DNA of 64,000 nucleotides from Bryocella elongata (GTDB lineage: Bacteria > Acidobacteriota > Terriglobia > Terriglobales > Acidobacteriaceae). The translations under genes were made by a program, and so were the position numbers. The notes under the pieces were generated by a model. That model was not told where the DNA came from. It searched no databases and saw only the letters and a list, made by a program, of their open reading frames with translations. The stretch lies in contig NZ_FNVA01000008.1 of the NCBI RefSeq assembly GCF_900108185.1, positions 186,001 through 250,000 on the forward strand, read 5' to 3'. Below, in pieces: positions 685 to 56,171 of this stretch; position 1 is the first letter of the stretch; every line of letters begins with the position of its first letter.

Positions 685-704
685 GGCCCGGTTAAAACCG
701 GGCC
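685..704. repeat. R2 palindrome GGCCCGGTT-AA-AACCGGGCC
   Basis: A perfect 9-bp inverted repeat with a 2-bp centre, nearly identical to the one at 18715-18734 (centre GA there). It directly precedes the transposase relic. The preceding bases 630-684 (cctgcactccagccttcgg and following) are similar repeat-like sequence. Confidence 0.8.
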
Positions 705-708
705 CTTC

Positions 709-879
709 CGGGTGGTCGCGGGGCCGGAGGAGTGGGCGTGGTCGAGCTTCCGGCAGTGGTGGGGCGGTGAGGTTGGGGTGGTGGAGGTGGAGTATCCGGC
801 GCTGGCGCGGAGGCGCGGCGGGTTGGGAGAGAAGCTCGGGCCGGATGGACGGGTGAGGAAGATACCTGAGTCCGAGTAA
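709..879 (+). pseudogene. REP-associated tyrosine transposase (RAYT/IS200-like), C-terminal relic
   Basis: The frame encodes RVVAGPEEWAWSSFRQWW and then GEVGVVEVEY...ALARRRG before a TAA stop at 877-879. The string VAGPEEWAWSSFR is the conserved end of Y1-type transposases linked to REP palindromes (usual form ..P..WxWSSYRhY..G). The catalytic HUH histidines and the tyrosine helix are absent, because the sequence upstream is replaced by R2 repeat sequence. It is therefore a decayed C-terminal piece of about 57 codons. RAYTs are known to mobilise REP hairpins, which fits the R1 hairpins immediately downstream. Confidence 0.75.
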
Positions 880-888
880 GTGGGCGCC

Positions 889-1050
889 CCACGTCTCGCG
901 TTTGAGACGTGGTGGTGGTGCGGGTGTTTGGGGGAGACTTGTGGTGGTTCGGGATGGGTGGTCTTGCGGGGCATCCTGCGAACCCATGTCTCAGAATCGA
1001 GACATGGGCACCCGATTTGTGGTGGTCCTTCGGGAGACATGGGCCACCCG
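889..1050. repeat. cluster of R1 palindromes next to the transposase relic
   Basis: Two hairpins are complete: 889-912 (CCACGTCTC / GAGACGTGG, 6-base loop) and 983-1008 (CCCATGTCTC / GAGACATGGG, 6-base loop). A partial right half lies at 1034-1050 (GAGACATGGGCCACCCG). The second has the full flanks seen elsewhere, CATCCTGCGAA on the left and GCACCCG on the right. The first has a GGGCGCCCC left flank and so appears to be in the opposite orientation. Confidence 0.85.
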
Positions 1051-7487: not shown

Positions 7488-7609
7488 CGGCTGCGCCGTT
7501 AGCGGGCTTCGCCCGGTAGCCGCTGCGCGGGAAGCGCTTCGCGTTCGTGTGAGGGCGCTGGTAGCTGAGGGGCCCACCCGATGGTGGTTGTCCTGATGCA
7601 TCCTGCGAA

Positions 7610-7635
7610 CCCATGTCTCAAGAGCGAGACATGGG
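7610..7635. repeat. R1 palindrome
   Basis: CCCATGTCTC / GAGACATGGG with loop aagagc, preceded by GCATCCTGCGAA and followed by GCACCTGGGG. It sits in the 273-bp gap between the exported protein gene and the DoxX-like gene. Confidence 0.85.
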
Positions 7636-7760
7636 GCACCTGGGGTATGCGCGGGGTTGTGTACACTACGGACATTCCTGACCAGATTTTGAAATAGCTC
7701 TGCCTGTTGTCGTCTGCGGGTTTCCAAGCGTATTGAGCGCGGGAATCGGAGGTGTGTTGC

Positions 7761-9095: not shown

Positions 9096-9167
9096 GGGCA
9101 GCGGGCAGCGCCCGTTGGCGCTTCGTGTTAGCGGGCTGGACTGGTGGTGACCGGACGCGTTGCTGTT

Positions 9168-18680: not shown

Positions 18681-18734
18681 AGGGCTAAAGCCCTTCGCGC
18701 TCTGCCGTTCTTGTGGCCCGGTTGAAACCGGGCC
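18681..18734. repeat. R2 palindromes (two)
   Basis: AGGGCTAAAGCCCT at 18681-18694, and GGCCCGGTT-GA-AACCGGGCC at 18715-18734, joined by cttcgcgctctgccgttcttg. They lie between two small membrane-protein genes of the sdh cluster. Confidence 0.85.
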
Positions 18735-18778
18735 CTTCCGTTCTTGCCTCGGCGTGGGTCTTGCCGGGGTTTGGTTCG

Positions 18779-20611: not shown

Positions 20612-20822
20612 GCTTATCTTCTACTCCTATAGGTCCTGAGGGAGGGCAAACGGACGCTGGAGCGCGGAAGAGATGGACCCGCACGGCACGTTTGCGGCAG
20701 GTCGATTCTTCCACCGGCATTTAAGCAGCGTCAAGGGAAAGGGTTGAGGTACGCGCGGTTATCGAAGATTCTGTGCGGAGATGGGGCGTCGGCGCCCATG
20801 ATGAGCCCTGGAAGGCCACAAC

Positions 20823-20860
20823 TCTTCGAGATGCGGGGCACCCGGATTCGTGGTGACGCC
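20823..20860 (+). repeat. partial R1 element
   Basis: Only the right half is present: cttcgagatgcggggcacccgg followed by attcgtggtg, matching the GAGAYGTGGGGCACCCGG half of complete copies. Confidence 0.5.
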
Positions 20861-22650: not shown

Positions 22651-23074
22651 CCGGTGCGAGCGGGTTCTGTTGAGCTATGAGGGCGGTAGCGATGAGCGGT
22701 GAGGATGGGCTTGGTCAGGGTCTTTCGTCTGGTTTTCGTCGATGGCGAGGTAGCGGGTGGCGTCGGGGTGGACCAGCAGAAGGTGGAGAGCCGCTTGTCG
22801 GTTTGTGAGGGTGTCATGGGCTGTTGTGGTTAGTTGGTGAGCGTTGGGGTCCTTCGACTGCGTGGATCGCGGCTTCGCTGCAACCCGCTTCGCTCAGGAC
22901 GACGGGTGTGGTGGTGGTCCTGACAGATCCTGCGAACCCACATCTCAAAGGCGAGATGTGGGGCACCCGGAGTGCGCGACGCAAAGAAGCGGGTCTCTCC
23001 ACTGCGCAGGACGAAAAAGCTGTCCTGCTTCGGTAGAGATGACACATCTTCGCCGCGTTTGAGCTGACGGTCTG
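22648..23074. other. 427-bp intergenic region with an R1 hairpin
   Basis: It contains degenerate gagctatgagggcggtagcg-type repeats after the GH39 stop and the R1 hairpin at 22937-22962 (CCCACATCTC / GAGATGTGGG, loop aaaggc), with TCCTGCGAA and GCACCCGG flanks. No gene is seen; short open frames here are made of the repeat. Confidence 0.7.
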
Positions 23075-24532: not shown

Positions 24533-24710
24533 TGGGATTCTCCGGGCGGCGCTGGGCCGCGGTTGCGGTGGTGCTGATGCTGTGCTGCAGGCTGGAGCTT
24601 CGCGGGTAAGCGAAGGCACCTCTGCCGATTGAGGGCAGGAGGTCAGTTGGAGTTCAGGTAAGGCAGGGCTTTGGGTGAGAGTAGCACGGTGCGGGGGAGC
24701 TTTAGCATCC

Positions 24711-24745
24711 CGCGAACCCACATCTCTTCGAGATGTGGGTTCGCG
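24711..24745. repeat. extended R1 hairpin
   Basis: CGCGAACCCACATCTC / GAGATGTGGGTTCGCG, perfect 16-bp arms with loop TTC. The left flank TGCGAA of normal R1 copies is here mirrored on the right, giving a longer stem; GCATCC precedes it as elsewhere. Confidence 0.85.
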
Positions 24746-24780
24746 GATTGTGGGTGACCTGCAGGTGCTGGGGCTCCGGA

Positions 24781-24906: not shown

Positions 24907-25581
24907 TCAGAGGCCGAAGGCGGCGATTTCGGCGAGGAGGCTGCGGAAGGCGCGGCCACGGTGGCTCAGGGACCACTTCTTGTCGGCGGGGAGTTCTGCG
25001 GTGGTGAGGTATAGCGAGGGGATCAGGAAGAGGGGATCGTAGCCAAAGCCGTTGGTGCCGCGGGGCGCGTCGAGGATTTCGCCGTCGACGGCGCTGGTAG
25101 CGCGGAGGAGGACGTGGCCGTCGCGGGCGAGTGCGAGAGCGCAGACGAATTTTGCAGTGCGGGGGGTGTTGGCGGGGAGGGCGCGGAGGCGTTCGAGGAG
25201 GAGGGCGTTGTTGCGCTGGTCCTTGGAGAGGGGTGGTTCAGCGGAAGCCCACGTCTCAGAAGAGAGACGTGGGGCACCCGAATTGGTGGGAGCAAGATAG
25301 CCGGCGTCGTCGGCGTAGCGGGCGGAGCGGACTCCGGGTTCGCCGTGGAGGGCGTCGACTTCGAGGCCGGAGTCGTCGGCGAAGACGAAGAGGCCGGGAG
25401 CGGCGAGGGAGCAGGCGACGGCTTTAAGTTCGGCGTTGCCCATGAAGGTGGGCGCGTCTTCGACGGGCTCGGGGATGTCTTTGAGGCCAGGGAGGGGGAG
25501 GACGTCGATGCCGGCGGAAGAGGCTGACGTGGAGAACTCGCGGAGCTTGCCGGGGTTGGAGGTAGCAGCGTAGAGGATCAT
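24907..25581 (-). CDS. rdgB: dITP/XTP pyrophosphatase (RdgB/HAM1) with in-frame repeat insertion
   Basis: This encodes 224 residues, slightly longer than the usual 195-205. The enzyme hydrolyses non-canonical purine NTPs to monophosphates, keeping them out of DNA. Family signatures are ATSNPGKLREF (residues 5-15), FADDSGLEVDAL (66-77), GEPGVRSARYA (79-89), GTNGFGYDPLFLIP (near 175) and SHRGRAF (near 206). Between SARYADDAG and the conserved NNALLLERL is an insert of about 20 residues (APTNSGAPRLSSETWASAEP), encoded exactly by an R1 palindrome. The ATG at 25581 has GGAG upstream and lies 19 bp after the IclR gene, so the two are cotranscribed. Confidence 0.93.
   Translation of the reverse strand: MILYAATSNPGKLREFSTSASSAGIDVLPLPGLKDIPEPVEDAPTFMGNAELKAVACSLAAPGLFVFADDSGLEVDALHGEPGVRSARYADDAGYLAPTNSGAPRLSSETWASAEPPLSKDQRNNALLLERLRALPANTPRTAKFVCALALARDGHVLLRATSAVDGEILDAPRGTNGFGYDPLFLIPSLYLTTAELPADKKWSLSHRGRAFRSLLAEIAAFGL
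25248..25273. repeat. R1 palindrome inside rdgB
   Basis: CCCACGTCTC / GAGACGTGGG with loop agaaga, followed by GCACCCGAATT. It keeps the rdgB frame open and adds amino acids to the protein. Confidence 0.85.
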
Positions 25582-55905: not shown

Positions 55906-56045
55906 GTCGTTGTCTTATCGTTGCTCGCGGCCTTGCACTCAGGATGACAGAAGGAGTCGTACCTGACGACCGCGGTTGCCACAAATGAGCCCGGGTCCGA
56001 GAATCCGGGGCACCCGGATGGTGAAGACATCAGGCATCCTGCGAA

Positions 56046-56071
56046 CCCACGTCTCAGAAGCGAGACGTGGG
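56046..56071. repeat. R1 palindrome
   Basis: CCCACGTCTC / GAGACGTGGG, loop agaagc, with CATCCTGCGAA before and GCACCCGGA after. A partial right half (ccggggcacccggatggtg) lies at 56007-56025. Both are in the 266-bp gap between two minus-strand genes. Confidence 0.85.
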
Positions 56072-56171
56072 GCACCCGGAGCATCGCTTCTTCCGATCAG
56101 GTGTTCGTTTAGGAGCGGACAATTCTGATTGACCTTCGAGCTATGAGCTACGGGTCAGATGTTCTGGTGCG

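Follow-up and report, generated by a model that had tools for sequence, protein, structure and literature searches.

A Granulicella-wide palindromic repeat, probably spread by a small transposase, encodes a predicted floppy loop, some 18 residues long, in RdgB

Palindromic repeats that lie inside bacterial genes are already known, both from the Rickettsia palindromic elements (RPEs) and from REPs of the GTAG and CGTC classes. The Rickettsia elements, whose in-gene copies are reviewed in PMC2229807, are, in the accessible portions of that literature, palindromes translated in frame inside conserved genes. A sequence-only reading of the locus described here drew an analogy to them, and the behaviour of the repeat in question, which we call R1, fits: it too is found in frame inside genes. 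The two differ in length, the Rickettsia elements measuring 105–146 bp (PMC2229807, accessible portions) and R1 ~50 nt. As regards the origin of R1, RAYT-associated REPs are closer in kind, given that several relatives have RAYT genes with R1 on both sides. As portrayed in the accessible sections of PMC3116915 (Bertels and Rainey 2011) and PMC3733652 (Di Nocera and colleagues 2013), RAYT-associated REPs and REPINs are, like R1, short covarying palindromes in multiple copies that lie mostly in co-directional or convergent gaps and sometimes flank a RAYT; a preference for such gaps over divergent ones is reported for REPs (PMC3733652, accessible sections) and is seen for R1 as well. The same sections describe a transposase link for GTAG REPs and not for CGTC repeats, which include some Rickettsia elements (RPE-4 and RPE-6 of R. 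conorii are counted as shorter CGTC REPs); CGTC repeats are said there to have no adjacent transposase, whereas R1 flanks RAYTs in some relatives. Unlike GTAG and CGTC REPs, R1 reads GTGC (GGTGC in copies) beside its stem, so that neither tetranucleotide is found, and we file it as a new REP-type family, RAYT-linked, that carries no GTAG or CGTC tag.

Precedents for REPs inside genes are also found in the accessible sections of PMC3733652, where REPs lying wholly within ORFs are listed with their encoded residues, several of them in DNA-repair or tRNA-related genes, and where recB of two Xanthomonas species carries different REPs at about the same site. R1 is another family, and in our case different repeats occupy loops of three proteins rather than of one gene. 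That source further describes TIRtrons/TIRYTs, tyrosine transposases with flanking inverted repeats (some self-complementary), to which we compared R1 by description; those of Acidobacteria include gma794 of G. mallensis, and the motif common to some of them, GGGGWSAS, misfits the GGGGCACC of R1. Granulicella aggregans appears in a table of REP counts in the available part of the RepRanger article (PMC12306157). A description of in-gene REPs in Granulicella was not found in the accessible portions of the open literature, subscription papers lying outside the scope of that search.

R1 is a Granulicella-wide palindromic repeat. In the window, by which we mean the whole 64,000-nt stretch analysed, six matches to the hairpin occur at three or fewer mismatches, as compared with 0.01 expected from shuffles, and the exact R1 pattern occurs at 52 places in this genome and at none in a backwards control. 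A covariance model of 50 positions, built from 20 copies that include the one in rdgB, finds at least 76 matches in this genome at E ≤0.1 and at least 71 at E ≤0.001, counts that may be low since whole-genome searches scored 150 first-look candidates per genome (here 150 of 1931). Counting this genome, at least 26 of the 28 available from the genus have model matches; the exact pattern is present in 21 of 41 genomes, namely this one and 20 of the 24 others of the genus, and in none of the 16 genomes outside it. Across 81 aligned matches, 96.4% of stem cells are paired and 77 cells show double changes versus 19.8 ± 3.9 in shuffles. The alignment had been fitted to the structure, and the counts are biased accordingly; when the partners are shifted by 1 to 3 columns, pairing falls to 25–64%. 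At gathering scores, no Rfam family is found in the window.

Most copies lie between genes. Outside rdgB, the window has plus-strand copies called intergenic at 969..1017, 7596..7645, 22923..22972, 24703..24748 (of a short-loop type) and 56032..56081, the last being the best-scoring match in the genome; a weak and doubtful R1-like match (E 0.079) lies at 20801..20847 on the plus strand. According to gene calls from our own codon-usage script, trained on the same loci, 64 of the 76 matches are outside called genes, with both neighbours running against the element in 30 cases, both running with it in 15, convergent neighbours in 16 and divergent neighbours in 3. Divergent gaps make up 3 of 56 gaps with R1 versus 63 of 243 R1-free gaps (Fisher p 0.0005). 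As in REPs generally, then, R1 is a short palindrome with many similar copies that is mostly extragenic and in co-directional or convergent gaps. Replication-strand bias was dropped as an explanation for R1 favouring one strand regionally, as at least five contigs switch strand.

The copy that drew attention to the family lies in rdgB, a gene of the XTP/dITP diphosphatase family on the minus strand (24907..25581), open from ATG to stop with 224 residues; a GTG upstream would lengthen the ORF to 25614. The element spans 25234..25283 on the plus strand, antisense to the gene, and encodes residues 100–116, NSGAPRLSSETWASAEP; its core at 25248..25273 is a palindrome that pairs perfectly over 10 bp around a 6-nt loop, CCCACGTCTC-AGAAGA-GAGACGTGGG. 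The reading from sequence had placed an R1 palindrome in frame within rdgB with no stop, and the hairpin does indeed sit inside an open minus-strand ORF. This copy scores 56.5 bits against the covariance model, a score that is partly built-in because the copy is among the 20 used to make the model, and the 78-nt stretch around it folds 3.8 sd below shuffles. The remainder of the protein, which had been described as an otherwise normal ITPase, would appear to be just that, as the ORF looks intact and Pfam places the product in the Ham1/RdgB family; a strong coding signal flanks the insert on either side, and every column that is invariant across 57 RdgBs is present.

Most relatives lack the insert. 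In an alignment of 36 RdgB rows (35 besides this one, 3 of them second copies of the same contigs), R1 is found in this genome alone, and the loop without R1 still varies by up to ~10 residues. Among 117 parsed sequences from the best 120 of 8000 scored homologs, the loop measures 14–16 residues in 91, compared with 33 here, so the insert adds about 17–19 residues; an earlier estimate of about 20 was right as to approximate size and not as to the exact figure. The alternative raised with that estimate, that all relatives would share the same residues at this site, is contradicted by both comparisons. The insert is not confined to this strain, as the closest RdgB homolog among those listed (P0122, 76% identical) also has an R1 peptide at the site. 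In an AlphaFold2 model made from 57 sequences (mean pLDDT 94.3), the insert lies in the lowest-confidence stretch, the surrounding block means being 60 and 80, and the flanking helices, residues 83–92 and 120–133, are retained around it; the R1 peptide is predicted to form a floppy loop of ~18 amino acids.

Is rdgB the only gene to have received R1? Twelve of the 76 matches in this genome were called genic, and ten were kept: one each in rdgB, clpB, rimO, eutC, pheT, nei2, ubiD and a gene for an ArnT-like glycosyltransferase, and two in lhr. The two set aside were L188, in which R1 lies 16 nt from a doubtful start of a gene that has no NCBIfam match, and L192, a trpE-like gene with an R1 match of 23.9 bits. 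All nine R1-carrying proteins pass Pfam cut-offs; NCBIfam equivalog cut-offs are passed by the products of clpB, rimO, eutC, pheT and ubiD (menaquinone type) and failed by RdgB, Lhr, Nei2 and the ArnT-like protein. For relatives, 145 matches were reduced to 138 copies by removing 7 duplicates from overlapping loci, a sample of the best-scoring ones plus one or two per genome; 12 of these copies are inside coding-like frames: hemE, tgt, recO, an amino-acid permease-like gene, an aldehyde dehydrogenase-like gene, a TIGR00275 flavoprotein gene, two adjacent ArnT/PMT-like genes, ligD (two copies), a penicillin amidase gene and L236, which has no family match. None of the 61 copies tested in G041, the genome with the most matches, is intragenic.

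A check of the frames used by these copies, suggested at the outset, shows that one is preferred. Of the 22 in-gene copies (10 own, 12 from relatives), 16 are antisense to the gene and 6 are sense. Fourteen of the antisense copies read a GAPRLDSETW-like frame, the other two read the frame that has a TGA in the best-scoring copy (the TGA being absent in these two), and none of the 16 reads the third frame, which is open and hydrophobic (RVPHVSLLRRGFAGC). Given equal odds for the two open antisense frames, a split of 14 to 0 would have a two-sided probability of ~0.0001, a figure to be read with the knowledge that some copies are not independent (in two genomes, ArnT-like genes have one in a similar region). 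We infer that the skew reflects selection against hydrophobic inserts. The six sense copies, for which all three frames are open, read PTSQKRDVGHP-like peptides in four cases, THVSEARRGAP-like peptides in two and the third frame in none. The ten copies of this genome had suggested one exclusive frame per orientation (10 of 10), an idea that was dropped as four copies in relatives use other frames. Two genes carry several repeat-like stretches: an lhr-like helicase gene (L211, 1999–7173) includes, in frame, three stretches of the SSRPE type besides its two copies of R1, and a penicillin amidase family gene (L303, 1525–4779) has R1 in the usually TGA-containing frame and three other, consecutive repeat-like stretches.

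At other sites, the inserts of this genome can be compared with what relatives have in the same segment. The ClpB segment is 37 residues long here and 23–24 in 15 of 25 distinct relatives; in the other ten it is 30–69 residues long, and the R1 peptide occurs in none. For PheT, the segment has 40 residues here versus 30–32 in 21 of 24 relatives, and for RimO it has 130 residues here, 110–112 in 6 of 24 relatives and 118–240, of other sequence, in the remaining 18; the RimO and ClpB comparisons thus indicate that other lineages have their own long linkers there. The EutC segment has 58 residues here; of the four nearest homologs, three have 51 and the fourth has 58 with no R1. The R1 peptides of the clpB, pheT and rimO sites are absent from the aligned relatives, except for a variant in pheT of G042 (L382), an R1-like element with a different stem that lies at the place of our insert in the same orientation and frame. 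Over all sites, RdgB included, the gain from R1 is thus roughly 8 to 19 residues, in some cases in place of local linker: the pheT, clpB and eutC inserts partly replace variable linker and are not clean additions.

Judged from their peptides, loops of RdgB, EutC and RimO hold different repeat types in different lineages, which is new; that the same loops are repeatedly filled by different repeat types goes beyond the prior print that we found. For RdgB and EutC we tallied the best 120 of 8000 scored homologs, which is not a random sample, dropping rows that could not be parsed (3 of 120 for RdgB, 19 of 120 for EutC), and labels R1, R3 and R4 were assigned by regular expressions on the peptides, the R1 labels of P0124, P0125 and P0159 being stem variants judged by peptide resemblance. 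The 117 parsed RdgB loops comprise 95 short, 6 R1, 15 R3 and 1 other long loop, where the R3 peptide is VISTEAQRSGETPVF- or SSRPE...RSGET-like; the 101 parsed EutC loops comprise 60 short, 16 R1, 7 R3, 11 R4 and 7 other long loops, where the R4 peptide is VILSEARSAQSKDPE-like. Where RimO of this genome has R1 in its linker, G001, G018 and G022 have R3-like peptides. R3 and R4 are probably dispersed DNA repeats, judged by word counts of 18 and 42, respectively, in 1.85 Mb of mutually overlapping loci. In an RdgB tree made with the loop removed, R1 needs 4 changes (3 forced by well-supported branches) and R3 needs 9 (7 forced), gains or losses, as compared with means of 5.9 and 14.4 in shuffles, in a tree whose bootstrap had not settled; fewer label changes than in shuffles suggest that inheritance plays a part. 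The RdgB of this genome and P0122–P0125 form one supported group in which all five have a repeat peptide, four R1 and one R3. P0151 equals P0194 outside the loop and has the loop of P0157, by either gene conversion or a chimeric contig. The pair P0151/P0194 was not relied on as a clean empty site, as P0151 comes from a 1132-base contig that may be a chimera. It is tempting, and to our minds somewhat less than an even proposition, to see a few loops of core enzymes in Acidobacteria (RdgB, EutC, RimO, perhaps PheT and ClpB) as places where several mobile palindromic repeats, unrelated to one another, have all landed, such that repeat transposition would be a main source of loop length change and the repeats would have been selected to encode harmless linkers in one frame.

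What might move R1? The RAYT of G041 encodes 168 residues with a Y1_Tnp match, and we recognise in it what we take to be the HVH and YIHRNP motifs; its ORF lies almost flush between inverted R1 copies. A search of the genus with this protein gave 67 matches, and among the 30 loci examined R1 lies within 150 nt of the R1-type RAYT on both sides at 7 and on one side at 6 (one of them weak), and at 17 there is none within that distance. In some relatives, R1 copies thus flank a RAYT gene, as those of RAYT-associated elements do. Six of the seven bracketed loci have inverted copies and the seventh, L430, has two in one direction; the bracketing copies of L437 are weak (26–29 bits), and several RAYTs among the 30 loci contain stops. 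In a broader first set drawn with PF01797, strong R1 matches lie on both sides within 150 nt at 2 of 33 loci (L323 and L325, both among the seven). Close pairs of R1 in G041 are inverted in 15 of 18 cases (61 copies), 12 of these 15 being arranged as around the RAYT. The RAYT of L146 (contig C14) was rejected as a partner, as it is flanked by another palindrome and no R1 match: its gene, 737–2128, has six flanking copies of GGCACGACTTCAGTCGTGCC, a palindrome not found in the window. At ~2230–2265 of the same locus a stretch resembling the downstream flank of R1 (GGGCACCCGGAATTGGTGGG), which lacks a full hairpin, was seen by eye. RAYT matches of another type lie within ~1.7 kb of rdgB in L005 and L002 (G001 and G007).

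We consider it likely that R1 belongs to the REP-type elements, that a RAYT mobilises it in trans and that its genic copies survive where they encode harmless linkers. R1 would be a non-autonomous element of ~50 nt, probably spread in Granulicella by this small transposase of the Y1 family; one copy would have entered the RdgB loop between two helices, antisense and in frame, and would have been retained because its translation, GAPRLxSETW, gives a hydrophilic linker, free of stops, in a loop where changes of length are tolerated. The earlier suggestion that the hairpin is or was mobile accords with this as far as signs of past mobility go; neither excision or transposition nor a duplicated target site was seen, and mobility itself we infer. 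An RNA role, in which the peptide is incidental and the transcribed rdgB hairpin is kept for its effect on termination, mRNA decay or translation speed, seems unlikely to us. It would suit the perfect stem of the rdgB copy, the avoidance of divergent gaps, which places nearly all intergenic copies downstream of a gene, and the excess of antisense copies (30 versus 15 in co-directional gaps, p 0.036; 16 versus 6 in genes, p 0.05); however, these skews in orientation are weak, with copies in clusters that are not independent of one another, stems are mismatched in the nei2, ubiD, eutC and ArnT-like copies, and the RdgB, EutC and RimO loops of relatives hold peptides of other sequence.

Quite unlikely, in our estimation, is that a fast-evolving linker acquired its R1-like sequence when repeat copies recombined or underwent gene conversion, with no transposition. 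RdgB loop length does vary in the absence of repeats, and P0151, identical to P0194 outside the loop and with the loop of P0157, has the look of such an event, but its short contig may be a chimera; moreover, conversion presupposes that the site already held a repeat, and the repeat is all that the unrelated genes bearing R1 have in common. That the hairpin is a chance resemblance and no repeat copy, or that rdgB is a pseudogene, we regard as exceedingly improbable, given hairpin matches far above expectation in the one case and, in the other, the open ORF, the coding signal on both sides and the invariant columns. R1 adds to the known repeats a palindromic family that is translated inside genes and, in relatives, lies beside a candidate transposase. 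The loops occur in many versions, with and without an insert, that serve as natural replicates; are the inserts neutral, harmful or used? The same sets of loops also allow one to ask whether selection on host proteins shapes the reading frame of a mobile element.

In this genome, the candidate mobiliser is reduced to a trace. Three RAYTs of its own exceed the PF01797 cut-off and are 27–30% identical to that of G041, and no R1 lies within ~1.5 kb on either side of these full-length genes. Of an R1-type RAYT, no intact gene was found here, only a C-terminal remnant on the plus strand of the window (~700..879, 5′ part missing), of which 712–798 is a search match (66% identity over 29 residues, E 1.4e-7) and the rest was drawn by eye from the frame; a partial R1 match on the minus strand (889..912) lies 10 nt beyond its stop. 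With only this tail left, the autonomous partner seems to have been lost, and the R1 copies here may be relics. Of the close R1 pairs in this genome, one of seven is inverted and six are direct, whereas inverted doublets predominate in REPINs and among the close pairs of G041. Two further repeats were seen in the window: TGGCCCGGTTAAAACCGGGCCCTTCCG, at 684–710 (the start of the RAYT remnant) and 18714–18740, and a 64-nt family around GCTGTAGAGGTGCGAGGTGTTCAGGTA, at 9154, 24765, 24841, 41759 and 41813.
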